A stretch of 46,057 nt of DNA from a virus: the IMG/VR virus record IMGVR_UViG_3300045110_000283, positions 1 to 46,057 of that record; one strand, 5' to 3'. Positions within the stretch are counted from its first letter, which is position 1; every line of letters begins with the position of its first letter. The notes beneath the pieces were generated by a model, which saw only the letters and a list, made by a program, of their open reading frames with translations, made no database searches and was not told the origin of the DNA. Below are positions 461 through 46,057 of this stretch, one piece after another. The position numbers were made by a program, and so were the translations under genes.

Positions 461-478
461 AATAGGCCCCGTCCTATC
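461..478. promoter_or_regulatory. Operator-like inverted repeat AATAGG-N6-CCTATC
   Basis: AATAGG (461-466) and CCTATC (473-478) are separated by six bases. Another CCTATTTTT half-site lies at 500-508, next to the AAGGAG ribosome site of the first gene. The same motif with the same spacing occurs between the divergent regulators at 40093-40110. A phage repressor acting here could control the excisionase-integrase genes immediately downstream of the CRISPR array. Confidence 0.5.
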
Positions 479-1968: not shown

Positions 1969-2049
1969 AGGTAACGCAGGCCTGACGGGCCTAAGTCGAT
2001 TTTTCCCAAAACGGATTGGGAAAACGGGAACGAAGGGTGAAAATCGCAC

Positions 2050-2130
2050 TGTGGAAGCCATTGACCGATCAAGGATAGTCGCTTTCCTGCAACAACAGCG
2101 ATCATCCTTTAGATTTCAAAGGCTTCCACA
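2050..2130. repeat. Long imperfect inverted repeat beside the integrase
   Basis: Two 34-nt arms (2050-2083 and 2097-2130) flank a 13-nt loop and match at about 26 of 34 positions. Perfect blocks are TGTGGAAGCC/GGCTTCCACA (10 bp), TTGA/TCAA, AAGGAT/ATCCTT and TCGCT/AGCGA. It could be the attP arm/core region or a structured RNA. Paired blocks at conserved offsets argue against chance. Confidence 0.55.
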
Positions 2131-2342
2131 AATCGATTTCCCAAAATCGTTCTCTGGTCGTTTCAAGTGGTGTCGCCGAAGCGCGCAAAACGGCGCGGGA
2201 CATTTGGTGACCCGGCCAACATTGCTGTGGAGCCGCCCATGAAGGCCACCGCCGACAGGCCGAAAGTGCCCGGGGGCCAGGCGGGATCAGGAAATCGCCC
2301 GCGCCTATCATCCCGAGGAGCTGCGCGCGTGAGCCGACCGAA

Positions 2343-2360: not shown

Positions 2361-2702
2361 AGGGCATTGCGACGCCCAGCGCCCGGGCGCTAAGGTCACG
2401 GCGGGTTTGGATACCCGGTGTGTTGCTCGGGCGGATCACCGGCTTTGCCACCGGCCCGCCGACGTGCCCGCGCATCGAATGCGGGTGCCACGGTCGCGAC
2501 TTGGCGGTCGCGCCTTCCCAGCCATTTTGGCCGGGGGCGCGGTGCCATGTCCAGGCCATCCGTGGCTAAAAGCACAGCGACGCGTAGCAACGCCTCCGCG
2601 TATCCAACCCCCGGCTGCCGGGGCCGCTCCCCGACCACTTGAGGGGGTTGCAAAGCTATGCTGCGCCGAAAGGGGGACACCACCCAAAAAAGGGCTTGCA
2701 CC

Positions 2703-9561: not shown

Positions 9562-9996
9562 TTATCCCTCGATGTAGATAACGGTCGGCGCCACCGCGCC
9601 CGGAATGATCGGCCCGTCGAGCGCGAGCACGCCGTCGAACCCAGCCGCCGTGACCACCGCGGCATCTTGTGTGGAATCGGCGGTCGCCGTCTCTGATATT
9701 GCCGCGCTTAGCGGAACAGGCACGAAAGCCGAAGCCACGTCGGCAGCTGCAGCCGCCTCGACGACAGCTATCGCGTAAACGAGCCCGGCATTGACGGTCG
9801 AACTGGCACTCGCCGCCTCGCGCATGATCTGCCCGAGGAACGCATCGATGTGATCGCCGACCGAGGCCGGGTCGTCGACCAGCGTGGCGAAGACGACGTT
9901 GCCGGTCCCAGGCGAGTCCAGCGCCGCCGCAGCCTCGGCAACATCGGCCGCGATCGCCGCCCGCCGTCGCGATTGGATGACGTTACAGACGAGCAT
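9562..9996 (-). CDS. Phage protein of unknown function, tail tip region
   Basis: A 144-aa Ala-rich protein (MLVCNVIQSRRRAAIAADVA ... GNVVFATLVDDPASVGDHID). It lies in an uninterrupted minus-strand series of virion genes and ends 4 bp before the tailspike-like start. No domain recognised; a small structural or assembly protein is likely from context. Confidence 0.6.
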   Translation of the reverse strand: MLVCNVIQSRRRAAIAADVAEAAAALDSPGTGNVVFATLVDDPASVGDHIDAFLGQIMREAASASSTVNAGLVYAIAVVEAAAAADVASAFVPVPLSAAISETATADSTQDAAVVTAAGFDGVLALDGPIIPGAVAPTVIYIEG

Positions 9997-10623
9997 TCAA
10001 GATTGGCCAGCAGTAAACTTAGCGCTTGGTGGGTTCACGATCACATCCAGGGTAAATGTCAGGGCTTGTCCAGTCTCGGCCCTTCCAGATTCCGACATTG
10101 GTTTCTCGGCCGGTGCTATTCCTGGTATGATTGCGACGGCGAATGCATGCCAGTCATAATGATTGTCTAGTGAAATCAGGGAAAGGAAGTCCAGTGGCCT
10201 CAAGACCATGACGACCTCTATCCTTATTTTGTTCTCCCCGCGGAAATTGGCTGTAGAACTGACGTAGTTGACCTCGCCGAACGCAGTCCCATCCGCTCGC
10301 TTTTGCTCAAGCGACCAATTCGCTGTCAGCGTGCCTGACTCTCCATCAGGCACGGTCAGTTCAGTTCTGCCGCCATAATAAGCCGCGTCGAAAAAAGGCG
10401 GCGGGGTGGCGCCTTCCGGCAAGTTTACCTTGAACGTACTTGGACTCAGCAGGGGAAGACCCTTTACCGACAATGTCACGACGGTCGGCGTGCCGTCTTT
10501 ATAAAAGCCTGTCGGTGTGGCAGAAAAACCCAATGATAATGTTGCAGGGCCCTTTTCAGCCCAATGCACATTATAGATGCCCGTCAGCACATCCTGAGAG
10601 AACGGCCCGATCGGATCTGCCAT
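9997..10623 (-). CDS. Phage structural protein of unknown function
   Basis: A 208-aa, strand-rich protein (GIYNVHWAEKGPATLSLGFS ... FRGENKIRIEVVMVLRPLDF). It shares base 10623 with the next gene upstream and abuts the one downstream, so it belongs to the late operon. Probable tail tip or fibre component by position; no motif recognised. Confidence 0.55.
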   Translation of the reverse strand: MADPIGPFSQDVLTGIYNVHWAEKGPATLSLGFSATPTGFYKDGTPTVVTLSVKGLPLLSPSTFKVNLPEGATPPPFFDAAYYGGRTELTVPDGESGTLTANWSLEQKRADGTAFGEVNYVSSTANFRGENKIRIEVVMVLRPLDFLSLISLDNHYDWHAFAVAIIPGIAPAEKPMSESGRAETGQALTFTLDVIVNPPSAKFTAGQS

Positions 10624-11417
10624 CAGATATCCGTGCGCAGGAACGGCAGCGTCACCGACAAGCCGGACGGCGCCGCGTTGTCGGATTGCGTGACCCGGAT
10701 CGCGTAGGCATCGCCCTCGGCAAACTCCGCGAAGGTCGGGATATTGAACGTCCCCGGCTGTCCGCCATCGGCATCGATACCGATGCCAACCGCAAACGTG
10801 ATCGTGCCGATCTCGACCCGGTTCTTCTCGATCGACAGAATGATAGAGGTGCCCGCGGTCACGCCGACATCGAGGTAAGCGTGGGCGTGGGCATTGCCGC
10901 TCGCCAAGTTCATCGTCCGGTTGGCGATCGCCTGGAACAGCAGCTCGTCCGCCGCGCGCTGGACGGTCCCTGGCACAAAGATCTGCGCGTCATAGTTGAC
11001 GTCATACAAAGGCATCCAGAACGAATAGAGCGGGTTCCCGGAACCATCCGTCGCATTCGGGTCGAAGACCGCCGGCATGACCGGCGTGGTGTGATCCACC
11101 AGCACCTGGTACATGCCGACGGCACGCTCCGAGATCATCTGGCCGCGGGTATAGGGCGTGCCGTTTGTCCACTGCCCGACATAGCTGATGACGGCAATCG
11201 GCAGCGGGATGGTCTGCGACGTCCCATCGGTAAAATGGACCGTCATGCTGTTGGAAGTATAAGTAATGCTGTCGATGCGCTTGCCTTCGGCCATATCGGC
11301 ATTTAGCGCAACGATCCGCTGATCGACGTCGTAGAAATTGCCGTCGACCTGGGCCGCGCTGTTGGGCGTGCCGCTGCCAGCACCCCAGGCGCCAGTCGTG
11401 ACAAAGACGATGGTCAT
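10623..11417 (-). CDS. Tail tip/fibre-like structural protein
   Basis: A 264-aa protein. The N-terminus (GAGSGTPNSAAQVDGNFYDV) resembles the trimer-entry region of phage fibre proteins; residues 75-115 (AVISYVGQWTNGTPYTRGQM) resemble a chitin-binding-like beta module; the C-terminal part is a strand-rich domain (HAHAYLDVGVTAGTSIILSI). Position between hub-like and spike-like genes fits a distal tail role. Confidence 0.6.
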   Translation of the reverse strand: MTIVFVTTGAWGAGSGTPNSAAQVDGNFYDVDQRIVALNADMAEGKRIDSITYTSNSMTVHFTDGTSQTIPLPIAVISYVGQWTNGTPYTRGQMISERAVGMYQVLVDHTTPVMPAVFDPNATDGSGNPLYSFWMPLYDVNYDAQIFVPGTVQRAADELLFQAIANRTMNLASGNAHAHAYLDVGVTAGTSIILSIEKNRVEIGTITFAVGIGIDADGGQPGTFNIPTFAEFAEGDAYAIRVTQSDNAAPSGLSVTLPFLRTDI

Positions 11418-11429
11418 TGTTCGCCGGAC

Positions 11430-11834
11430 CTATGAAGATCGCGTCACGTCGGCCTGGATGATGGTGACATTGTCGACCTTCGGCGGATCGGAATAGAGCA
11501 CTTTTATCGGCCCCTGTGTGGTGTCCAGCCTGACTCGCTTCAATCGCTCGACCTCAACGTAATTGTCTTGATGCATGATGCTGGCGCCGCCAGGCTTTTG
11601 TTCTACCTGATAGACCCTTTCCTTGTTGAATTGCCGAACCGCTTCCTTGTGCGGCTTCTGCCGTGAAAGGTTGACGCTCCAACTGCGCGAGCCGCTGAGC
11701 CCGCCGCCGCCCGCGGCCGCGCTGATGACTGCCATGCCCTGCGTGGGGTCGTCCTCGGGCGCCAGCACTTGCGCCGGCGCGGGCCGGATGTTGGGAAAGA
11801 CGACCGGCCGGACGATGGTCTCGAAAACCGCCAT
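11430..11834 (-). CDS. Phage protein of unknown function, tail tip region
   Basis: A 134-aa protein with a Gly-rich linker (SAAAGGGGLSG) and a strand-rich C-terminal half (DTTQGPIKVLYSDPPKVDNV). The start overlaps the stop of the hub-like gene by one base. The name is not recognised; co-translation with the hub suggests a baseplate or tail tip part. Confidence 0.6.
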   Translation of the reverse strand: MAVFETIVRPVVFPNIRPAPAQVLAPEDDPTQGMAVISAAAGGGGLSGSRSWSVNLSRQKPHKEAVRQFNKERVYQVEQKPGGASIMHQDNYVEVERLKRVRLDTTQGPIKVLYSDPPKVDNVTIIQADVTRSS

Positions 11835-13717
11835 TATACAACCTCCAGATCGTAGCCGGTTGGCACCTTGAGATCGCTAACCTGCACATCGTAATCGGTC
11901 GAAAAGGCGCGGGTCATGCTCTTGAGCTTGAATGTCATTTTTTCCCCGTTGGAATAATCGATCGCGAGCGGGATTTGGATGACATCCGCTACCGAGAGCG
12001 GATAGAGGAAGTTCAAGCCATCGTCGTTTGGGTTGGCAACCGGCGGCTGGTAGCCGACCGACGTATCGAACAGGACCGTGCGTCCCGTGAATTGCTGATA
12101 GTCGGCGCCGGTATAGGCGATGTCGCAATAGGTCGGCTCACCGCCAGCAGCCACCGCCGAACCTCCGCGGCCGATGGGGCAGCCGATGCGGATCTCGCAT
12201 TTGATCCGGCCATCCGAGCCATCCAACGCAACCGAATATCCGATGACTTTGCCCAGCGCCTCACCGATGCGCGGCTCCACCAGGAAGGCATTTTTGCGCA
12301 ACGTCACCTCCGGCATGCGCGCGAGCCTGGGCGCAACGGTGATCTCCACCACCCGTGCTCGCTTCAGCAGATGGGCTCGCGCCAACGCGATCAAGTGCTC
12401 AAGGCTGCGATTGCCGCGATCGGTCGCAATGTAGGATCGACGCCGCGGATCGACGATCGGCACATAGGCATCCGATCCCTCCCCGATCGATTCGCTCAGG
12501 TTGACCGATTTGACGTCATCGACCCGCAACGCCTCGCCGTCCTCTGGGTCAGTCAGGACAGGCTGGACATCAGCAAACAGCGAAAAAGACACCACCTCGG
12601 TGCATTGCCGTTTGGCCGAATAGCCGGCCACCAGCATGACAATGAGATAATTCAGCGGCAACACGGACCAGGTTTCCGAATAGTTGCGGCTGTAAGACGA
12701 CGTATAGGTGGATGTCCCGTAATCGCTGACGACATCGGGTGCCGTCGTTACTTTGATGTCGTCCGTCACCGTCAGACCATAGGTCGACGAGCCGGGCCCG
12801 ACCAGGGGCTCGCTTGTGGTGTCAGTAAAGGTTGTCGTCGTGGACGAGGGGCCAAACCACGACGTGTCCGGGAAGACGGCCGTCGCGGTGCTACTAAAGC
12901 TCGTGGTGATGGTTTGATTGCTGTAGACCGAATAGGCGGATGCATCGGCAGCAACCCAGCCGTCGCCGAGCGTAGCGCCGGGTTTTGGCCAACTGTCGGC
13001 CGTTAGATAATACGACATGATCAAACCGTGACCGGCGGTCCCACCGGTCAGGTAGCGGGTCAGATCGACAGTCCCTTGCGCCAATTGAGTCCAGGTGTAT
13101 TCGGCTTTCACATCGACGCGTGTGAGCGGCCCGCTGGTGAGGTTGAGGCCAAGACCGTCATAGAGCACCTTGCCATCTTCGCTGGCGCCGTTGAACTCAA
13201 CGAGCCCGTCCTCGCCGTCGATCTCATCCGAGACGGTCAGGACGTGGGTCTCGCGATCGTAGTGCCAGATCGCGCTGTAGCCTTCGAGCACGACCTCCGG
13301 GTCGGTACGCCGCGCTGGGTCGATCACCACCTCGTCGTAATACGGCAGTACCCGCAACGTCTCGGCCAGGGCTTCCTTCTGCGCCACCAGGTCGATCGGC
13401 CGCGCCACGAATTCCAGCGTCACCAGTTCCTCGAAGATGCTGGTCGGCACACCCACGAGCCGGCCGCGAAAACGGATCAGATCCGGCCCGCAGTCGAGCG
13501 CGAACCACGCCCAGATCTTGCGGCCGGGACCGAGCAGCCCGATGGCATTGCCGGCCGAATTGCGTGGCCGGCGCACCACCAGGGTCAAGGACGCCGGGTC
13601 GCCCTCGTCCTGCTTGAGCGAGAACGAGAACACATCCTCGTCCCAGCGCATGTGCTCGGGACCGAACGTCGTTTCGCCCGGATCGGTCCAAGCGAAGTAC
13701 GGAAGTCCGGCGGGCAT
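11834..13717 (-). CDS. Tail hub/baseplate-like protein
   Basis: A 627-aa protein downstream of the tape measure gene. The N-terminal 130 residues (WDEDVFSFSLKQDEGDPASL ... GRLVGVPTSIFEELVTLEFV) follow the pattern of hub domain I/III modules in siphophage tail tips. A Thr/Ser-rich insert lies at about 280-350. The C-terminal part (about 400-560: RARVVEITVAPRLARMPEVT) is again hub-like. It would cap the tail tube end; the assignment rests on size, order and local pattern. Confidence 0.6.
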   Translation of the reverse strand: MPAGLPYFAWTDPGETTFGPEHMRWDEDVFSFSLKQDEGDPASLTLVVRRPRNSAGNAIGLLGPGRKIWAWFALDCGPDLIRFRGRLVGVPTSIFEELVTLEFVARPIDLVAQKEALAETLRVLPYYDEVVIDPARRTDPEVVLEGYSAIWHYDRETHVLTVSDEIDGEDGLVEFNGASEDGKVLYDGLGLNLTSGPLTRVDVKAEYTWTQLAQGTVDLTRYLTGGTAGHGLIMSYYLTADSWPKPGATLGDGWVAADASAYSVYSNQTITTSFSSTATAVFPDTSWFGPSSTTTTFTDTTSEPLVGPGSSTYGLTVTDDIKVTTAPDVVSDYGTSTYTSSYSRNYSETWSVLPLNYLIVMLVAGYSAKRQCTEVVSFSLFADVQPVLTDPEDGEALRVDDVKSVNLSESIGEGSDAYVPIVDPRRRSYIATDRGNRSLEHLIALARAHLLKRARVVEITVAPRLARMPEVTLRKNAFLVEPRIGEALGKVIGYSVALDGSDGRIKCEIRIGCPIGRGGSAVAAGGEPTYCDIAYTGADYQQFTGRTVLFDTSVGYQPPVANPNDDGLNFLYPLSVADVIQIPLAIDYSNGEKMTFKLKSMTRAFSTDYDVQVSDLKVPTGYDLEVV

Positions 13718-14312: not shown

Positions 14313-17167
14313 CAGGAATACCGGCTGGGCTTGCGCCCGCCCGAGCGCACCTGCGCCATGGCGGCGGCCTGGCGTAATTCATCGACCACACCGGACGAGG
14401 CGCGCAGCCCCGTGATTTCCGGCAGGCCCGGAAATGCGATGGTGACGTTGTGCATCCCGCCGCCGGCGAATGCCGGGATCGAGATCGGCGCCCGCACCAT
14501 GCCGCCGAGCGCAAACCGCCCCATGCCGTCGAGCACGTCACGCAGGTTGCCACCTGAACGCCGCAGTGCCTCAAGGAACGCCAGCACGCCCGGCTGGCTC
14601 ACCGCGCGTGCCGGCGTGATGAACTCACCGCGAGACACCCACGCGAGATTGCTGTCGCTTGTGCCAGTGCCGCGGCCACCGAGCAGGCCGCCGCCGGCAA
14701 ATCCAGCACTGCCGCCAACCTGACCCCCCGCCGCACCGGCAGGCGCTGGAGCGCCGCCGCCGATCTGCATGAACTTCGGGACGGTCGCGTTCCACTTCGC
14801 AATGATCCAGTCCAGAGCTTCCTGGAACTTATCCTTGAGCCACTGCCAAGCCTCGCCCGGTGCCGTCGTGACGAACGTAACGACCGATTGATAAGCCTGC
14901 AGTGCAAGCGCCTTGACCTGCTCCCATACACTGACCGCCGTGTCCTTGATCCATTGCCAGGCATTCGCGACCGGCGTCAGAACCCAGTTCTGAATGGCCT
15001 GATCTATGGCGGCGGTCACACTCTCGAAGAAGGCAACGATAGCGAGGAGCGCGGCCTTGATCTGGTCCCGGAAAAGAAAGATCGCAGCAGCAAGGATAGG
15101 GACCACCAAGACTATTGCCGCCGCGGTGGCGCCAAATGCCACTCCGACCGCCCCAACCGCACCGAAAAACACTGTAAAGGCCGCGGCAACGACGGTTGCC
15201 ACTGCTGCTAACGCCTGGAACGCCCCAGTCATCTGTCCGACGATCCCCAGCACAAGGACTCCCGTGCCAGACACCTCCACACCGAATATTTTGCTGAGCA
15301 CAGGTGCGAGAGCAATTCCGGCTTTGCGCAAGGCAACAAAAGCGGCAGCGATGAGCGCGAGCGTGGCCGGCAACTCCACGCCCATTTCCTTGATGGAGTC
15401 GACAAACTCCTTCACCCACGGCCTTTGCACAACACCTTCGCCCGAGATCGCCCTGGCGAAATCCCCGAGCACACCCTCGCTCTGCATGATGGCCTGGTTG
15501 ATGGTGAAGAATGCCTCGACCGCCGCTGCGCTGAACGATTTCCAGGCGCCCGCGAAGTCGCCCTTCAACAATGCTTTGAACGTCTCTTGCAATTGATCTC
15601 CCAAATCCGGCAGCAACCCCGCCAATGTGGATGCGCCAGCCTTGATCTGATCCCAGAACAGCACCACCAGCGCAATGAGCGGGATGAGAATAGGGCCGAA
15701 GGAAGCAAACAATCCTATCAGTGCCGTGAATGGCGACAGCACAAAGCTGATACCCTTGAACGCAATCGCCAGCGCGACAGCAGCAGCCGTCAGCGTGATG
15801 AAACCCGCAATCACCTGTGCCGTCGTTACACCCTCAAAACTGCTGGCAATATTTTCGACCACCTCCATCAGCTTCTTGCCGGCCGGAACCAGCACGTCTC
15901 TCCAGATGCCTGCGAGTTGCTCGCTGATCGCCGCCAGGATCTTGAACGCGGTTGTTACCGGCGTGTCCCCGATGTTTTCGAGGAAGGCCGCGCGACGGGC
16001 CTGGCTCAGGCCAAGCCACATTTTCAGCAGCTCGCGCGAGCCGTCGACGAGTTGCGTCAGCCATTGAACCTTCGTCAACTCGCCAGGAGCGAATAGCGCG
16101 CCGATCTGATCCCTGGTAGCGCGGATCGCTGCGCTCAGGTCCGCCCATGCGTCCTTGACTTTCTTGGCCGTGTCGACCTGATCGGCCGTCAACTCGCGCG
16201 ACTTTTTCCGCATCGCCTCTTCCGAGTCGACCGTCGACGTCTTCGCAGCGAGCAGGGCCTTGATAACGTCCTTCCAGCTATCGTCAAAGAATTGCACCCC
16301 AGCGGCCGATTTCTTCAGCCCATCCGGCATCCTGTCGATCATCGCCGCAGTCTCGGTCAGGATTTTCAGCATATCGCCGCTTTGCAGCGTCTTCATCTGT
16401 ACGCCGAGTTGGCGAAACGCCGTCACTGTTGCAGCGGTTTCCTTCGTCAACTGATTCATGGCTGTGGTGGTGATATCGACGAGTTTACCGTCTGCACCCA
16501 TGATCTTGATTGTCGTCGATGCCTTCGCAATCTCATCCTTCATCTTCTCGATCAAGCCGACGGTCGTGCCGGCCCCTTTGATAAAATCATCAAAGGAACC
16601 GCCAGCACCAGCGATCGCCTGACGAAGCGCCACCCATTGCTCCGTGCTCAGTTTCAGCTTCTGGGCCTGCTCGGCGATCTTGGCGCCGGTTTCGACCGCG
16701 CCCTTGGTCAGAGCTGTTACGACGGCGCCAATCGCAAGGACGATGCCTGCGGCGGCAAGCCGCCATTTGTTGGCAGTCGAGATCAGCGACTCCCCGGCCG
16801 TTTGTCCGGCGCCAGCTACTTGCTGGCCGGCCCGCTGCATTGTTGCGCCGGTCTGCTGCGCCGCTGCATTGGCCGCATTCAACCCGGTCGCGACCGCTGC
16901 GGTGGCCTGCGTGCCCTGGCTCCCGAACGCCGTCACAGCCTGCGCCAACTGCAGGAACTGATTGGCGAGCTGCGAGCCCGTGGTCACCAGCCCGTTGAGT
17001 GCTTGCTGAGTTTGCGCATATTGCTGCGGATCGACCTTGGCCTTCTGGGCGGCATCCGCGATCTGCTTGAACGACTTCTCGCCGGCCGCGCCGAGCTCTT
17101 CGAGTTTCTTCTTGATGTCATCGCCGCCCTCAAGGGCGATGCGCTGGCTTATCGTCTTGCTGGCCAT
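14312..17167 (-). CDS. Tail tape measure protein
   Basis: A 951-aa protein, the longest gene here. The N-terminal 200 residues are Ala/Gln-rich and helical (VATGLNAANAAAQQTGATMQ). Hydrophobic segments lie at about 130-150, 450-505 and 655-705, as in tape measure proteins that set tail length and may enter the host membrane. Long helices continue to about 800, then a Gly-rich C-terminus. Position directly after the tail chaperone/tube genes supports the call. A 951-residue helical ruler predicts a tail of roughly 140 nm by the usual 0.15 nm per residue, a rough inference. Confidence 0.9.
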   Translation of the reverse strand: MASKTISQRIALEGGDDIKKKLEELGAAGEKSFKQIADAAQKAKVDPQQYAQTQQALNGLVTTGSQLANQFLQLAQAVTAFGSQGTQATAAVATGLNAANAAAQQTGATMQRAGQQVAGAGQTAGESLISTANKWRLAAAGIVLAIGAVVTALTKGAVETGAKIAEQAQKLKLSTEQWVALRQAIAGAGGSFDDFIKGAGTTVGLIEKMKDEIAKASTTIKIMGADGKLVDITTTAMNQLTKETAATVTAFRQLGVQMKTLQSGDMLKILTETAAMIDRMPDGLKKSAAGVQFFDDSWKDVIKALLAAKTSTVDSEEAMRKKSRELTADQVDTAKKVKDAWADLSAAIRATRDQIGALFAPGELTKVQWLTQLVDGSRELLKMWLGLSQARRAAFLENIGDTPVTTAFKILAAISEQLAGIWRDVLVPAGKKLMEVVENIASSFEGVTTAQVIAGFITLTAAAVALAIAFKGISFVLSPFTALIGLFASFGPILIPLIALVVLFWDQIKAGASTLAGLLPDLGDQLQETFKALLKGDFAGAWKSFSAAAVEAFFTINQAIMQSEGVLGDFARAISGEGVVQRPWVKEFVDSIKEMGVELPATLALIAAAFVALRKAGIALAPVLSKIFGVEVSGTGVLVLGIVGQMTGAFQALAAVATVVAAAFTVFFGAVGAVGVAFGATAAAIVLVVPILAAAIFLFRDQIKAALLAIVAFFESVTAAIDQAIQNWVLTPVANAWQWIKDTAVSVWEQVKALALQAYQSVVTFVTTAPGEAWQWLKDKFQEALDWIIAKWNATVPKFMQIGGGAPAPAGAAGGQVGGSAGFAGGGLLGGRGTGTSDSNLAWVSRGEFITPARAVSQPGVLAFLEALRRSGGNLRDVLDGMGRFALGGMVRAPISIPAFAGGGMHNVTIAFPGLPEITGLRASSGVVDELRQAAAMAQVRSGGRKPSRYS

Positions 17168-30462: not shown

Positions 30463-32154
30463 CTACGCAAAGAACAACTGCAGTTCCGGTGTCCGCTGCG
30501 GCTTCGGATCGCGCACCATCACGGTGACCGCGTCCATCAGCGCCATCCACGGGTCTATTTTCGCATCGCCAGCGTTTTGCTTGCTCGCGCGAATTGCCGT
30601 GGCCGTAGCCTCGATCCTCACGTTTCCCACGCACCAATCCATCAGCGCATTCTTGCAATGCTTCAGAGACCCGTTTTCCGTTTTTCTCTCGCACGTCTTG
30701 ACGGCATTCATAAGCTGGTAGCCCTGCGGCGCGCCGACGACCTGCTCCTTCTCCTGCGTTATATCGATCGCGCGGAGACTTTCGATGAACTCGCCCAGGC
30801 CCGCGGGATCGACGGCCACGCACGCCAGCAGCTTCTTGTCCCTGATGCCGGCAATCAGCTCGACGATGTCGTCGATGTCTTGCGCTGCATGCTCCACAAT
30901 TGTCAGCTCGCCCGCCGCCTGCGCCTGCACCAGCCGCGCCGCGATCGACTTGCGCCGCTCGAGCACGCTGCGGTGACACCACGCATGCGTCCAGACCAGC
31001 CAATCGAGCGTCTCACGACAACGCCCGACCACGGCCACGCCGAACAGGTCATCGAGCCCGCCGCCGTCGATGCCGACCACCACAACCTCGGATCGCAGCA
31101 AGATCTCGTCCAGCGTCAGCGCCGGGTCCTCGGCCGCCTCCCAATATTCCGCGCCGGCCCAACCATCGGTCTTTAGTCCAACCCCTATCTCGATGTTGAG
31201 ATGCTGCGAGACCCAGATCTGCTCGGCCTGGTCATTGACCTTGCCGTTGTTCTCATAGTCTGCCGCCAATCGCTCCGGATCGATCGAGCGCCCAATGTTT
31301 GGGAGGATCATCGGCCAGTGCCGCTGGTCGCGCCAATAGTCCTGGTCCTTTTGCAGATTATGCGGAAACTCATATAGAACCGGGAGCAATATCGGCGACG
31401 CACCACCTTTCCCGTCCCGGATATCGCGCGCCTTCTTGAGTTCAGTCTTCCAAATCCCGGCAGGCTGCTCGTCCGACTGCGTCGTGATCATCAGGACCTG
31501 GCCGCCGTGCATGGTGATACCGCCACCACGGATTTGCTGCATGACCGATGCCGCCCTTGCCTTCTTCCCTAGCTCATGCAGCTCGTCGATGATCGTCAGT
31601 ATCGGTATTTCGCCGGTCATGATCGATGTATCGAAGGTCTTCACATTCAGGCGCGTCATGCTCTTTCGGCGCGTAATGGACTTGAGATCGTCGCGGATCT
31701 TGAAGATGGCATCCAGCTTGGGATCGAGCCGGATCATTCCTTGAGCCTGTGCAAAACAGCGATCGGAGATATTCTGGCTCGGCGCAACAATGAGCATCTG
31801 GCGGTTCGGAGCCGGCTCCATGAACAGCGCCGTCAAACCCAACGCCGCCACGTAGGTCGTCTTCGAGTTCTTCTTCGGCACCATGCACAGCAACTCCCAA
31901 ACGAGTCGCTGCTTGGTCTCGGGGTCCTCGCTCGCGAGGAATGCACAGAGGATGTCGCGAAACCAATCGCCGCACGCATCGGCGAGGAGTGGCGCCCCAA
32001 CGACATCGGGAAGCCTCAGACGATTGAAAAACGCAAGCGCTCTTGCTGCCCTGTCCTCGTTCAGCGGGACACGCGCCATTGGCGTCTCGCCAGCCTGTAT
32101 TTTTTCCCACCAGTCCGGGCAGGCAAAACGCGGCAGCCGTTCAGTGGACAGCAT
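30463..32154 (-). CDS. terL: Terminase large subunit
   Basis: A 563-aa DNA-packaging motor. ATPase Walker A-like VPKKNSKTT (92-100), a TIIDELHE Walker B with D190-E191, a TTQS coupling motif near 225, and an RNase H-like nuclease domain starting at GIDGGGLDDL (D363) with VAVDPAGLGEF later. This matches Terminase_1/HK97-type large subunits. It cuts concatemers and pumps DNA into the prohead. It overlaps the small subunit-like gene by 14 bp. Confidence 0.93.
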   Translation of the reverse strand: MLSTERLPRFACPDWWEKIQAGETPMARVPLNEDRAARALAFFNRLRLPDVVGAPLLADACGDWFRDILCAFLASEDPETKQRLVWELLCMVPKKNSKTTYVAALGLTALFMEPAPNRQMLIVAPSQNISDRCFAQAQGMIRLDPKLDAIFKIRDDLKSITRRKSMTRLNVKTFDTSIMTGEIPILTIIDELHELGKKARAASVMQQIRGGGITMHGGQVLMITTQSDEQPAGIWKTELKKARDIRDGKGGASPILLPVLYEFPHNLQKDQDYWRDQRHWPMILPNIGRSIDPERLAADYENNGKVNDQAEQIWVSQHLNIEIGVGLKTDGWAGAEYWEAAEDPALTLDEILLRSEVVVVGIDGGGLDDLFGVAVVGRCRETLDWLVWTHAWCHRSVLERRKSIAARLVQAQAAGELTIVEHAAQDIDDIVELIAGIRDKKLLACVAVDPAGLGEFIESLRAIDITQEKEQVVGAPQGYQLMNAVKTCERKTENGSLKHCKNALMDWCVGNVRIEATATAIRASKQNAGDAKIDPWMALMDAVTVMVRDPKPQRTPELQLFFA

Positions 32155-39759: not shown

Positions 39760-40029
39760 CTATTGAGGGCTGGCTGGGGTATCGTGACCGTTCTTGCGTA
39801 CCTTCGAGCGACGCCGATTGCGTCGCCCTTTTGCGAGCTGATCCTGTTTCTGGATGAAGCGTTGGGCGATCTCAACGAGCCGCAACGACGGCGCACGGCC
39901 CTTCCGCAACTGAAAGACAAACATCGGATCGCCGACCGCGTCGCGGCCGAAATTCGTCGGTGGCATGCCGCTTTTTTTGAGGAAGGCCTCAATCTCGCTC
40001 GCGAACTTGCTGGCGCTCATGATCGGCAT
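39760..40029 (-). CDS. Putative HTH regulator, divergent (left)
   Basis: An 89-aa protein. The helix-turn-helix-like segment is ASEIEAFLKKSGMPPTNFGR, then DAVGDPMFVFQLRKGRAPSL; the C-terminus is basic (AKGRRNRRRSKVRKNG). It is transcribed leftwards from the region holding the AATAGG-N6-CCTATT palindrome, so it may be an early regulator or the repressor itself. Start at ATG 40029 is uncertain; 40020 is possible. Confidence 0.6.
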   Translation of the reverse strand: MPIMSASKFASEIEAFLKKSGMPPTNFGRDAVGDPMFVFQLRKGRAPSLRLVEIAQRFIQKQDQLAKGRRNRRRSKVRKNGHDTPASPQ

Positions 40030-40092
40030 AGACCGATCATATTTCCACAAATACGATTTAGTCAAACCGGCTATTAATCGCCTATCCAAAAA

Positions 40093-40110
40093 AATAGGAA
40101 CAACCCTATT
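40093..40110. promoter_or_regulatory. Operator-like palindrome AATAGG-N6-CCTATT
   Basis: AATAGG (40093-40098), six bases, CCTATT (40105-40110), with A- and T-runs extending both arms to 40088 and 40114. It lies in the divergent gap between two HTH genes, the classical place for a lysogeny switch operator. The same motif and spacing recur at 461-478. Confidence 0.6.
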
Positions 40111-40617: not shown

Positions 40618-40654
40618 AATCGATCATTTGACGCGATAGGATTTTAGCGATATT

Positions 40655-42659: not shown

Positions 42660-43841
42660 ATGGCACAGGCTCAAGCAGTCGCGCTGATCGACGACGTGCG
42701 GCGCGATCTCGTCAAGATGCGCCCGCAGTTTGAAAATGCATTGCCGGCGCACATTCCGGTCGAGCGCTTCGAGCGCGTCGTGATGACGGCGCTGCAGAAC
42801 AATCCGAAACTGCTGACGTGCCGTCGGCAATCGCTGTTCAACGCATGCATGCGGGCCGCACAAGATGGATTGCTGCCGGACGGTCGCGAGGGCGCGATCG
42901 TGCCCTTCGGCGACGATGGCGACGACGGCAAGAAGTCGGCCGACACCGCCTCATGGATGCCGATGATACTTGGCATCCGCAAGAAGGCGCGCAACTCCGG
43001 TGAGATCGCCGACTGGTACGCCGAGGTCGTGCACGAGGGCGATGACTTCGAATATGTGAAGGGCGACGACCCGCACCTGTTTCACAGGCCGTCGCTGGTC
43101 GGCGGGCGCACGCGCAAGATCACCGCGGCCTATTCGATCTGCAAATTCAAGGACGGCACGATCGCGCGCGAGGTGATGACGATCGCCGAGGTCGAAGACG
43201 TCCGGCAGAAGTATAGCCGCGCCAAGAAGGGCCCGTGGTCAGATCCGATCGCCTATCCCGAAATGGTGCGCAAGACCGTGGCGCGGCTGCATTCGAAATC
43301 GCTGCCGATGTCGACTGATCTCGACACGCTGATCCGCCGCGATGACGAGCTTTACGACATGGCCGGCGCCGGCGATCGCGCCGTGCGCCCCAAGCGCGTT
43401 GCCAACAACAGCCGTGCTGCGCTCGATCACTTCGCCGACAACGGCAATGCCGATCGGCCCGCGCGCATTGAGCACGATGGCGACGGCGTCGTCATCGACC
43501 ACGAACAGCAGTCTTCCGCCGGCGCCGAACACGCGGCGGGGGGTGCGCCCGCTCCTACGGAACCAGGTGCCGCGTCAGGGGCGGGCGCCACTTCCGATGC
43601 AAAACCGAACAAGCCCACGGCCGATCCGAAGACGCAGGCGAGTTATGTGGCCTATGCCGGCAACTGGCGCGACACGACCGATGATCCCGACGAACTCGAG
43701 CGCCGGTGGGATGCGGAGAAGAGTTTGCGCAACAGATGCAATGTCGAGACTGAGGTGCGCGACGATCTGCACGGGCTGCTGAAGGTAAAGGTCGGCATGC
43801 TGCGTCACCGGGCTCGCCCGGACATCAGCGAGAGACCTTGA
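42660..43841 (+). CDS. recT: RecT single-strand annealing protein
   Basis: A 393-aa protein. Core RecT pattern at 10-235: PAHIPVERFERVVMTALQNN, CRRQSLFNACMRAAQDGLLP, DGREGAIVPF, and the PYxxMxRKTVxR-like YPEMVRKTVARLHSKSLPMS. The rest is a Gly/Ala-rich, acidic linker and a short helical end. It anneals ssDNA made by the exonuclease. Its last 14 residues (MLRHRARPDISERP) are encoded by the first degenerate CRISPR-like repeat, which suggests the repeats moved into or grew out of this gene end. Confidence 0.9.
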   Translation: MAQAQAVALIDDVRRDLVKMRPQFENALPAHIPVERFERVVMTALQNNPKLLTCRRQSLFNACMRAAQDGLLPDGREGAIVPFGDDGDDGKKSADTASWMPMILGIRKKARNSGEIADWYAEVVHEGDDFEYVKGDDPHLFHRPSLVGGRTRKITAAYSICKFKDGTIAREVMTIAEVEDVRQKYSRAKKGPWSDPIAYPEMVRKTVARLHSKSLPMSTDLDTLIRRDDELYDMAGAGDRAVRPKRVANNSRAALDHFADNGNADRPARIEHDGDGVVIDHEQQSSAGAEHAAGGAPAPTEPGAASGAGATSDAKPNKPTADPKTQASYVAYAGNWRDTTDDPDELERRWDAEKSLRNRCNVETEVRDDLHGLLKVKVGMLRHRARPDISERP

Positions 43842-43962
43842 GCAGCCCATGCAGCCAAGTCCCAAATCCCGGGCTGGCCCGGTCGACAGCCAGAGGCGCG
43901 CAGCATGCTGATCTTCACGGCATGTCGTCCCACTACCGGGCTCGCCCGGACAAAAGCGAGAG
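43799..43962 (+). CRISPR. Three degenerate CRISPR-like repeats upstream of the effector
   Basis: Relatives of the array repeat end at 43834, 43895 and 43962 (36-nt units 43799-43834, 43860-43895, 43927-43962). Their 3' 27 bases are well conserved and their 5' 9 bases have decayed. The intervening stretches are 25 and 31 nt, and 34 nt separate the last unit from the effector ATG. In the middle copy the stem bases CTCGC/GCGAG have become CTGGC/GCCAG, a compensatory pair change. The first unit overlaps the end of the recT-like gene. They could be a relic mini-array, a source of crRNA-like guides, or protein-binding hairpins in the effector mRNA leader. Confidence 0.85.
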
Positions 43963-43996
43963 TAATGCTCGTCCTTGCCGTCCCAGGGAAGCGAAA

Positions 43997-45283
43997 ATGA
44001 CTGAACGCAATATCCGCGTCCATCGCCGTTACACGTGGAAACTCTACCCCACTACAGAGCAGGCAAACGCCTTGCACGAGCAACGCATGATGATTGTCGA
44101 CCTGTGGAATGCGCTGCTGCAGCGGCACGAGGACATCTGGCGCCGCACGCGCGGCCAAAAGGGTGTCGTGCATAGCGAGGCGCGCTCGTCCTATACCTTC
44201 TTCGACATGACGGCTGAGATCACCGATCTACGGCGCGAGTGTTCGGAGTGGGCCACGCTGTCGGTATGGTCCGCCTACGGCGCCGCAGAAGCGCTCGACA
44301 ACGCATTCAAGGCGTTTTTTCGTCGCGCCAAGGCCGGCGCTGGCGCGCAGTCTGGCTATCCGCGTTACCGCCGTCGCCGCGATGGCAAAAGCATCCCGCA
44401 CCGGCATTCCCTGTTTTGGCCGGCGGGGCCGGGCAAGCCGCACGACAGTCGGGCAAAAAGTGGGGCCGGGAGCGGATGTTTATTGCGACATCGGCATGGT
44501 CGCAGTTGGTCGCTCGCGCTCAAGGCCGTGGATGGTCCGATTCATACCCGAGGCGCGCTGCCGGACACGGCGTGGGACAAGATGAGTGCGGCCAACGTCT
44601 TGTGGCAAGACGGCCGCTGGTGGTTCTCAGTGTGCGTCGAGATGGCGCCGCGTCGCGCGCCTGGGCGGCAGCCCGTCACTGTTGATTTTGACCTGATCGA
44701 CGGGCTCGCGCGCGTCGGCGGCGAGCTGGATACCCCCGAGCCGCTGTCGCGTATTGCGACGCTGGCCCGCGATCTCGACCGAATGAAGTCCGAACGCGAC
44801 CGGCGCTGGCCGCGCCCAGCACGAAGCGATCCCGATTGGCAAGAGGCTGAAGTAGAGATCCGGCGCCTGTCAGCGCGCATCGCTCGCGCCCGCCGCGATT
44901 GTCTTCATGTCTGGACGACACGCATCGTGCAGGGCGCCTCCGATCTTACAATACATTCGCCACGCATCAGCGAGCACATCACTTCGCCGCATGGCGACAC
45001 GCGCGAATGGGGTGCGCACACCGGCGCCGTATCAGAGCTCAATCGTTCAGTTCTGTCTTATGCGCCAGCCATGGCGGCGCAAATGCTCAGCTATAAAGCC
45101 GAGGAGGCAGGCATCCGGTGCGACGTCGTGATCGACGAAGCGCCGGCTATCGCGGTCGGTTCTGCGTTGGTGCAGGCCGGTCAATCGTTGCGGCACAGTT
45201 CGCGCAAAATCAGGAGGAGTATCGATGATGGCAACAGCAAAGCAACAACAGGCGGCGATCATTCATCCGACGGTCACGCATGA
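43997..45283 (+). CDS. Compact TnpB/Cas12-like (type V-like) effector, predicted nuclease-inactive
   Basis: A 428-aa protein. The N-terminus (YTWKLYPTTEQANAL, then an NALLQRHEDIW helix) and the FFRRAKAG...GYPRYRRRRDG segment at about residues 100-135 match the wedge and recognition layout of IS605 OrfB/TnpB and small Cas12 proteins. A RuvC-I-like strand carries D230/D232 (VTVDFDLIDG). A long helical pair follows (about 255-305). The RuvC-II strand reads DLTIHSP near residue 320 and has no glutamate. The segment before the end (SYAPAMAAQMLSYKAEEAGI) matches the TnpB helix preceding the zinc ribbon, but no CxxC pair and no RuvC-III aspartate follow. The start at 43997 is chosen for its AGGGAAG site; the frame is open upstream to 43838, but that stretch encodes degenerate repeats. 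Position between repeats and an array supports a CRISPR effector rather than a transposon protein. Guide-directed binding is inferred. Confidence 0.8.
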   Translation: MTERNIRVHRRYTWKLYPTTEQANALHEQRMMIVDLWNALLQRHEDIWRRTRGQKGVVHSEARSSYTFFDMTAEITDLRRECSEWATLSVWSAYGAAEALDNAFKAFFRRAKAGAGAQSGYPRYRRRRDGKSIPHRHSLFWPAGPGKPHDSRAKSGAGSGCLLRHRHGRSWSLALKAVDGPIHTRGALPDTAWDKMSAANVLWQDGRWWFSVCVEMAPRRAPGRQPVTVDFDLIDGLARVGGELDTPEPLSRIATLARDLDRMKSERDRRWPRPARSDPDWQEAEVEIRRLSARIARARRDCLHVWTTRIVQGASDLTIHSPRISEHITSPHGDTREWGAHTGAVSELNRSVLSYAPAMAAQMLSYKAEEAGIRCDVVIDEAPAIAVGSALVQAGQSLRHSSRKIRRSIDDGNSKATTGGDHSSDGHA

Positions 45284-45540: not shown

Positions 45541-45673
45541 GGCGAATAGCAGAATGCAATCAATCAGATGCCGGAATCAGACAGGCGAGGGGCGGCGACC
45601 ATGCGATGGTGCAACACGAGCGCTCGCAATCGCCGCTGTTTTATCAATCGGTCCAGCGACCTAGCGATAGGCC
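45541..45673. other. Presumed leader region of the array
   Basis: The 133 bp between the stem-loop and the first repeat contain no convincing gene. The reading frames that cross this region run on into the repeats and are not credible. No clear -35/-10 pair was seen. It is where a leader or promoter for the array would be expected. Confidence 0.35.
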
Positions 45674-46057
45674 GATCAACCACCGGGCTCGCCCGGGCAA
45701 CAGCGAGAGCATCCAGCAAGCCGAGCTCGAGCGCAAACGTCTCCGGGGATCAACCACCGGGCTCGCCCGGGCAACAGCGAGAGCCAGACGAGCATGTAGT
45801 AGCTCAACGCTCAGACGGTGGGATCAACCACCGGGCTCGCCCGGGCAACAGCGAGAGGCGGACCGCGTCCACCAGGGCGAGCTCGCCCGCGAGGATCAAC
45901 CACCGGGCTCGCCCGGGCAACAGCGAGAGCCGCTGACGCGCGCGTTGGCGGTCACCAAATAACCGAAGATCAACCACCGGGCTCGCCCGGGCAACAGCGA
46001 GAGCGTCTGAATGCTCAGTACAAAGAGTCGCTGCCGGAGGATCAACCACCGGGCTCG
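45674..46057 (+). CRISPR. CRISPR array, proximal part (four unique repeats plus duplicated end)
   Basis: Identical 36-nt repeats lie at 45674-45709, 45748-45783, 45822-45857 and 45894-45929. The copies at 45968-46003 and 46040-46057 (cut off) duplicate those at 38 and 110 because the contig ends overlap. Spacers are 38, 38, 36 and 38 nt; the last crosses the junction. Counted on the circle, the array has ten repeats and nine spacers. It lies about 180 bp downstream of a small gene that overlaps a TnpB/Cas12-like effector gene, on the same strand. No adaptation genes are nearby. Confidence 0.92.
45931..46057. repeat. 127-bp terminal duplication (contig end overlap)
   Basis: These bases are identical to 1-127. 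An exact end overlap of 127 bp is what a de Bruijn assembler leaves on a circular or circularly permuted molecule when its k-mer is 127. It indicates a complete genome of 45930 bp rather than a biological terminal repeat. The overlap falls inside the CRISPR array. Confidence 0.85.

Follow-up and report, generated by a model that had tools for sequence, protein, structure and literature searches.

The window, meaning the whole stretch of 46,057 nucleotides analysed here (record IMGVR_UViG_3300045110_000283), represents a circular temperate phage of 45,930 bp with a 127-bp terminal repeat. Since the record is circular, its CRISPR array (45671–46057, continuing at 1–428) crosses the record ends and stops about 32 nt 5′ of position 461. 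Further along the plus strand lie genes for an excisionase/AlpA-like HTH protein (xis, 525–812) and a tyrosine integrase (int, 787–1968), a conserved structured stretch that is a candidate RNA (2387–2640), and the gene for an XRE-family HTH protein, P0003 (2703–3128). Elsewhere on the circle, the gene for a CI-like repressor of 154 aa, P0002 (40153–40617, plus strand), diverges from one encoding a Cro-like protein of 86 aa (39760–40020, minus strand).

A palindromic word, AATAGG-N6-CCTAT(T/C), recurs among these features. Exact copies lie at 40093–40110, between the divergent regulators in an OR-like position (AATAGG-AACAAC-CCTATT, AATAGGAACAACCCTATT), and at 461–478, 3′ of the CRISPR array and 47 bp 5′ of the xis ATG (AATAGG-CCCCGT-CCTATC, AATAGGCCCCGTCCTATC). 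A third copy, with one mismatch, is found at 2343–2360, 5′ of the structured stretch and the XRE gene (AATAGG-ATTGCA-CATATT, AATAGGATTGCACATATT). The original prediction had described exactly these three copies, and all of them are present. Scanning the whole genome for AATAGG-N6-CCTAT(T/C) with at most one mismatch returned 461, 2343 and 40093 only, all intergenic; the many equally good matches in coding sequence that would have undermined the prediction were not found. With up to two mismatches there were 10 strand-hits, corresponding to five places, against a mean of 1.7 and a maximum of 6 in dinucleotide shuffles. The spacing is also selective: when half-site spacings of 0–24 were scanned, N6 alone gave more than one match with at most one mismatch, and the sole other such match was a single N19 pair at 15689. 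Moreover, the plus strand contains AAATAGG three times, once at each of the three sites.

The 40093 copy is a perfect 10+10 palindrome when its flanks are included, the longest N6 palindrome of the genome. Besides this one strong operator, the switch region of the phage holds a half-site, CCTATC, at 40081–40086 (24 bp from the right half of the 40093 operator) and a perfect variant palindrome, ATGATCGG-N6-CCGATCAT, at 40019–40040. The latter lies over the cro start and the predicted cro promoter (TTGACT-N18-TATGAT, 40036–40065, minus strand, 10 of 12 consensus bases), and may be a variant operator. A degenerate operator, GATAGG-ATTTTA-GCGATA, follows directly 3′ of the CI-like gene (40635–40652).

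We then considered what the two divergent genes encode. P0002 gave no DNA-binding match in Pfam and, used alone as a query, no match in IMG/VR, genome contigs or INPHARED; the lead came from the plasmid collection only, in which residues 22–84 resemble the N-terminus of an S24 CI repressor from Bradyrhizobium sp. ISRA432 (39.7% over 63 residues). AlphaFold predicted a confident helical HTH at about residues 21–85 and a poor C-terminal part. The best solved neighbours of this model are XRE proteins, including 434 Cro and the P22 c2 operator complex, none of them below E = 0.001. Neither an S24 peptidase domain match nor a homologue of the C-terminal part was found for P0002 and so, judged by its sequence, the protein shares its HTH with S24-family CI repressors yet is not a full member of that family. 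RecA-stimulated cleavage is therefore not expected as the induction route, and dimerisation of P0002 is an assumption, because the C-terminal part has no homologue. The Cro-like protein matched no family in Pfam or NCBIfam. Its model has four helices and matches XRE proteins more weakly than that of P0002, but divergent homologues lie beside CI in relatives; they belong to a small HTH family found opposite S24-type CI genes in many phages (L081, L084, L101 and others). HTH homology, in the case of P0002, and predicted HTH folds for both products are thus what we regard as established.

The Bradyrhizobium CI, a full S24 repressor of 242 aa, is encoded on a 46.6-kb phage-like plasmid (NZ_CP094518), where its gene diverges from that of a small protein, P0005, similar to the Cro-like protein of the window (44% over 59 residues). 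The CI/Cro region of this plasmid contains five clustered AGG-N6-CCT sites, and none was noted beside its integrase. An alignment of the P0002/S24-CI HTH family led to 80 loci in IMG/VR, chosen by protein alone; those relatives that are annotated have alphaproteobacterial hosts. We surveyed the 180 bp 5′ of the CI start, comprising 71 distinct regions. Allowing two mismatches, AATAGG-N6-CCTATT is present in 53 of the 71; allowing one, in 37; and 47 contain an exact TAGG-N6-CCTA. In spacing controls at two mismatches, only 0–9 regions matched for spacings of 1–5 and 7–20 bp, and 35 for a spacing of 0, a count that we attribute to ACTATT, the inner part of many sites, resembling the right half. 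The comparison with related phages thus places the same word before homologous CI genes in dozens of phages, and points to a repressor with the S24-CI type of HTH, together with its Cro-like partner, as the likely type of binder.

The arrangement of the sites in relatives is also informative. Most of their operators are grouped as pairs or triplets, often with 20–23 or 26–27 bp from one to the next, and some carry AATCGG half-sites (L083, G057, G080). Whole records hold from none to five sites, generally as one cluster at CI/Cro. A second cluster is often found directly 3′ of the CI gene, recalling OR and OL of lambda, and the degenerate 40635 site of the window occupies this OL place. The relative with the closest Cro homologue (G044, 57.6%; CI of 149 residues) has a second operator pair 6.3 kb away, surrounding TTGACG...TATACC, which we read as a promoter. 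A divergent Cro homologue is present at 57 of 81 loci, and its presence goes together with that of the operator (39 loci with both, 10 with Cro only, 8 with the operator only, 11 with neither; p = 0.007, to be taken only as a guide because the loci are related). The motif gave just two one-mismatch matches in 39 records of terminase relatives, so the operator tracks the regulator and not the virion genes; no P0002 relatives were found in those records, and these phages mostly carry other regulators. The large terminase itself (30463–32154, minus strand; L014–L057 region) has about 50 relatives in IMG/VR at 37–80% identity, and shows DNA similarity to Rhodobacter phage RcapNL.

To score the window independently of its own sites, we built a matrix from 77 operators of relatives, leaving the window out; it was seeded with the predicted word at no more than two mismatches, and the relatives are not independent of one another. 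The three highest-scoring sites in the window were 40093 (26.8 bits), 2343 (17.8 bits) and 461 (17.7 bits), and every matrix trained on a random half of the operators likewise put these three first. Simulated genomes of the same composition contain 0.03 sites of at least 16 bits each, and the number in the window is therefore beyond chance. The fourth-best site is 40635 (12.7 bits), and the sixth, at 40021 (11.4 bits), is part of the 40019–40040 palindrome. At a threshold of 14 bits, random-half matrices recovered a site in 33–34 of 39 held-out CI regions; with the full matrix, applied to 1748 control stretches taken from the same loci, 3 passed.

Together, the preferred N6 spacing and the data from relatives' CI/Cro loci bear out the idea of one operator serving one dimeric type of regulator, with its home at the pair around 40093. 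AATAGG-N6-CCTATT is very probably the operator of P0002 and its Cro-like partner. We also considered that the XRE protein P0003 might be the binder and the three sites its regulon, given that it is a clear HTH_3 protein, that one copy lies 5′ of its gene and that a close relative of the phage, G001, keeps this gene. However, the word accompanies the CI/Cro pair in dozens of phages and its best copy in the window is found there too, whereas the 2343 copy sits 343 bp from the XRE start, and we regard this assignment as highly improbable.

We propose that dimers of the CI-like P0002 bind AATAGG-N6-CCTATT through their HTH domains and that Cro-like dimers probably bind the same word, also via HTH. 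Binding at 40093–40110 would set the CI/Cro switch and thereby control the minus-strand operon starting with cro. Through the copy at 461–478, the same repressor would also govern xis and int, keeping both silent in the lysogen and allowing their joint expression on induction, and the copy at 2343–2360 would extend this control to the transcript carrying the structured RNA and the XRE gene. Taken as a whole, with the roles of the distal sites included, this scheme appears probable; that both proteins bind, in which direction they regulate and what the distal sites do is inferred here.

For xis and int, the original prediction was borne out as to a good, well-placed site at 461, but not as a feature of the family. 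An integrase could be recognised in 23 of the relatives' records, and in none of these does an operator at up to one mismatch neighbour it; a search for relatives of the window's integrase itself found none, and in open papers we found no account of CI control of int/xis. Single operators 5′ of xis/int and of the structured-RNA/XRE unit thus appear particular to this phage. At 500–505 there is a half-site, CCTATT; its distance from the right half of the 461 operator, 27 bp, also occurs between operators in relatives. The distal sites have their weak points: both are single, both are weaker than 40093, and a consensus promoter scan of the plus strand found none at 461 or 2343. It could therefore be argued that 40093 alone works, the sites at 461 and 2343 being mere relics or chance matches that play no part at xis/int or XRE. 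Their scores, about 9 bits below that of 40093, agree with such a view, as do the relatives without an operator beside int and the lack of the AATAGG form at 2343 in G001. On the other hand, 0.03 such sites are expected per simulated genome and two were found, both intergenic and both 5′ of transcription units, and G001 keeps a symmetric N6 palindrome near the place of 2343. On balance we consider relics or chance matches unlikely; a repressor bound at 461 is likely to hold xis and int off in the lysogen.

Two copies of the word flank xis/int, and core sites of tyrosine recombinases are typically inverted half-sites with a short spacer, which could make the motif a core or arm site of Int. Yet the best copy sits between the two regulator genes, some 6 kb away from int around the circle, the word accompanies CI rather than int in relatives, and a different palindrome beside int is a better att candidate, so that a recombination site seems exceedingly unlikely. 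This other palindrome, TTTTCCCAAAACGGATTGGGAAAA, is perfect and lies at 2001–2024, shortly 3′ of int; a TTTCCCAAAAT copy near 2140 is partly conserved in G001. Window positions 1976–2160 are accordingly marked by us as a candidate attP or Int-binding region.

The copy before the XRE gene had been taken as one more site of the same operator. It does precede that gene, but at a distance of 343 bp and with the structured stretch of about 250 nt directly after it, and is therefore not simply an XRE autoregulation site. For an operator working here, at the head of the structured-RNA/XRE unit, the balance is only slightly favourable. G001, a 34.7-kb contig, matches the window at xis/int and XRE and as far as the end of cro; it ends at both decisive places, 461 and 40093, and those positions have no counterpart in it. 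Near the place of 2343, shortly 5′ of the structured stretch, it has AATCGG-ACGTTG-CCGATT, with the same spacing and symmetry and A changed to C in both halves. This is suggestive of a shifted repressor specificity, but no proof of it, because the alignment does not superimpose the two palindromes exactly.

The structured stretch is shared by the window (2387–2640) and G001 (about 1710–1960, in the reverse of L066+L067). Folded alone, both sequences are predicted to form a similar long multi-branched RNA, and a two-sequence consensus fold contains 9 pairs kept via changes on both sides. Relative to shuffles, the fold of 2387–2640 has a modest z of −1.8 on this strand and of −3.4 on the other. 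An Rfam scan of the window gave no match at the gathering score and only weak sub-threshold matches at 2300–2720. We also considered a tracrRNA here, as about 13 bases (TGTTGCTCGGGCG) could pair with the CRISPR repeat. This reading was set aside, since the TGTTGCT part pairs inside the RNA in both folds and G001 changes both sides together (CGTACTT/AAGTACG).

A further claim of the original prediction was that the operator links the CRISPR array to the other units. That 461 is the trailer end is suggested by the repeat orientation, by a location 3′ of the Cas12-like gene and by mutated repeats around 190–275. The array appears to be transcribed in the direction of 461, and no terminator-like site was found in between, so that transcription could plausibly continue towards xis. 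A bound repressor might end or limit the array transcript, or switch the array with lysogeny. However, the loci around the two Cas12 relatives (L006 and L007) have no operator, their best sites scoring 8.4 and 7.1 bits, and no P0002 relative was detectable in their records. Since the operator is absent from both loci, the link comes down to adjacency. Moreover, the CI/Cro pair and the downstream xis/int already account for the word, and 461 lies at what seems to be the trailer, not at a leader. We give very little credence to 461 as part of the CRISPR cassette, and any role of this operator for the array is quite improbable. Also very unlikely is the wider scheme of a peptidase-less CI-like repressor with a scattered single-operator regulon and an array limited at 461, in which lysogeny would set both integration and immunity. 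The Cas12/TnpB-like protein (43838–45283, 481 aa, 5′ of the array) has weak matches to PF01385 and phrog_506, and only two relatives were found in IMG/VR, at 76% and 38% identity. Around the start of its gene, at 43795–43969, the CRISPR repeat (CACCGGGCTCGCCCGG..AGCGAGAG) recurs as degenerate single copies; L006 has about a dozen degenerate copies, irregularly spaced and forming no regular array (9947–12096).

The analysis thus predicts an operator word for temperate phages of a group in which few repressor sites are known, and the word and matrix can be used to find the switch and the promoters it regulates elsewhere. In this phage, the switch repressor would seem to control the integration genes directly, while a tempting but unsupported tie between operator and CRISPR array falls away.

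How does this operator set compare with known systems? Temperate rhizobial phages offer one point of reference, and the operator word of Rhizobium phage 16-3 appears to differ from AATAGG-N6-CCTATT. The operators of phage 16-3 are oL1, oL2, oR1 and oR2, and for phiLM21-like prophages of Sinorhizobium a survey published in 2025 reported no more than the absence of lambda- and 16-3-like operators (PMC12429752). In the telomere phage PY54, CI and Cro are separated by just one palindromic operator, 18 bp long, to which Cro binds (PMC4488713). The single CI/Cro palindrome is as in the window, while the host and the word are unrelated, and the available part of that account reports no distal operators. 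Plasmid NZ_CP094518 shares with the window a homologous HTH, a divergent Cro homologue and AGG-N6-CCT operators, and differs in its full-length repressor, its clustering of sites and the absence of a noted site by its integrase. In the CI–Cro switches of lambda and P22, too, a palindromic operator separates CI-like and Cro-like HTH genes that diverge from each other, and the relatives recall their OR and OL by having 2–3 operators at CI/Cro and a further cluster 3′ of CI. The window departs from lambda and P22 in its operator word, in having one strong switch operator instead of three, in a degenerate OL, in single distal copies at xis/int and XRE, and in a CI without the S24 peptidase domain. 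In lambda, int and xis are also under CI control, through PL; an operator directly at xis/int is not the habit of the relatives' family. Therefore, the kind of system, with operators of a CI/Cro switch, is already known, and the operator set described here is a real further example of it.
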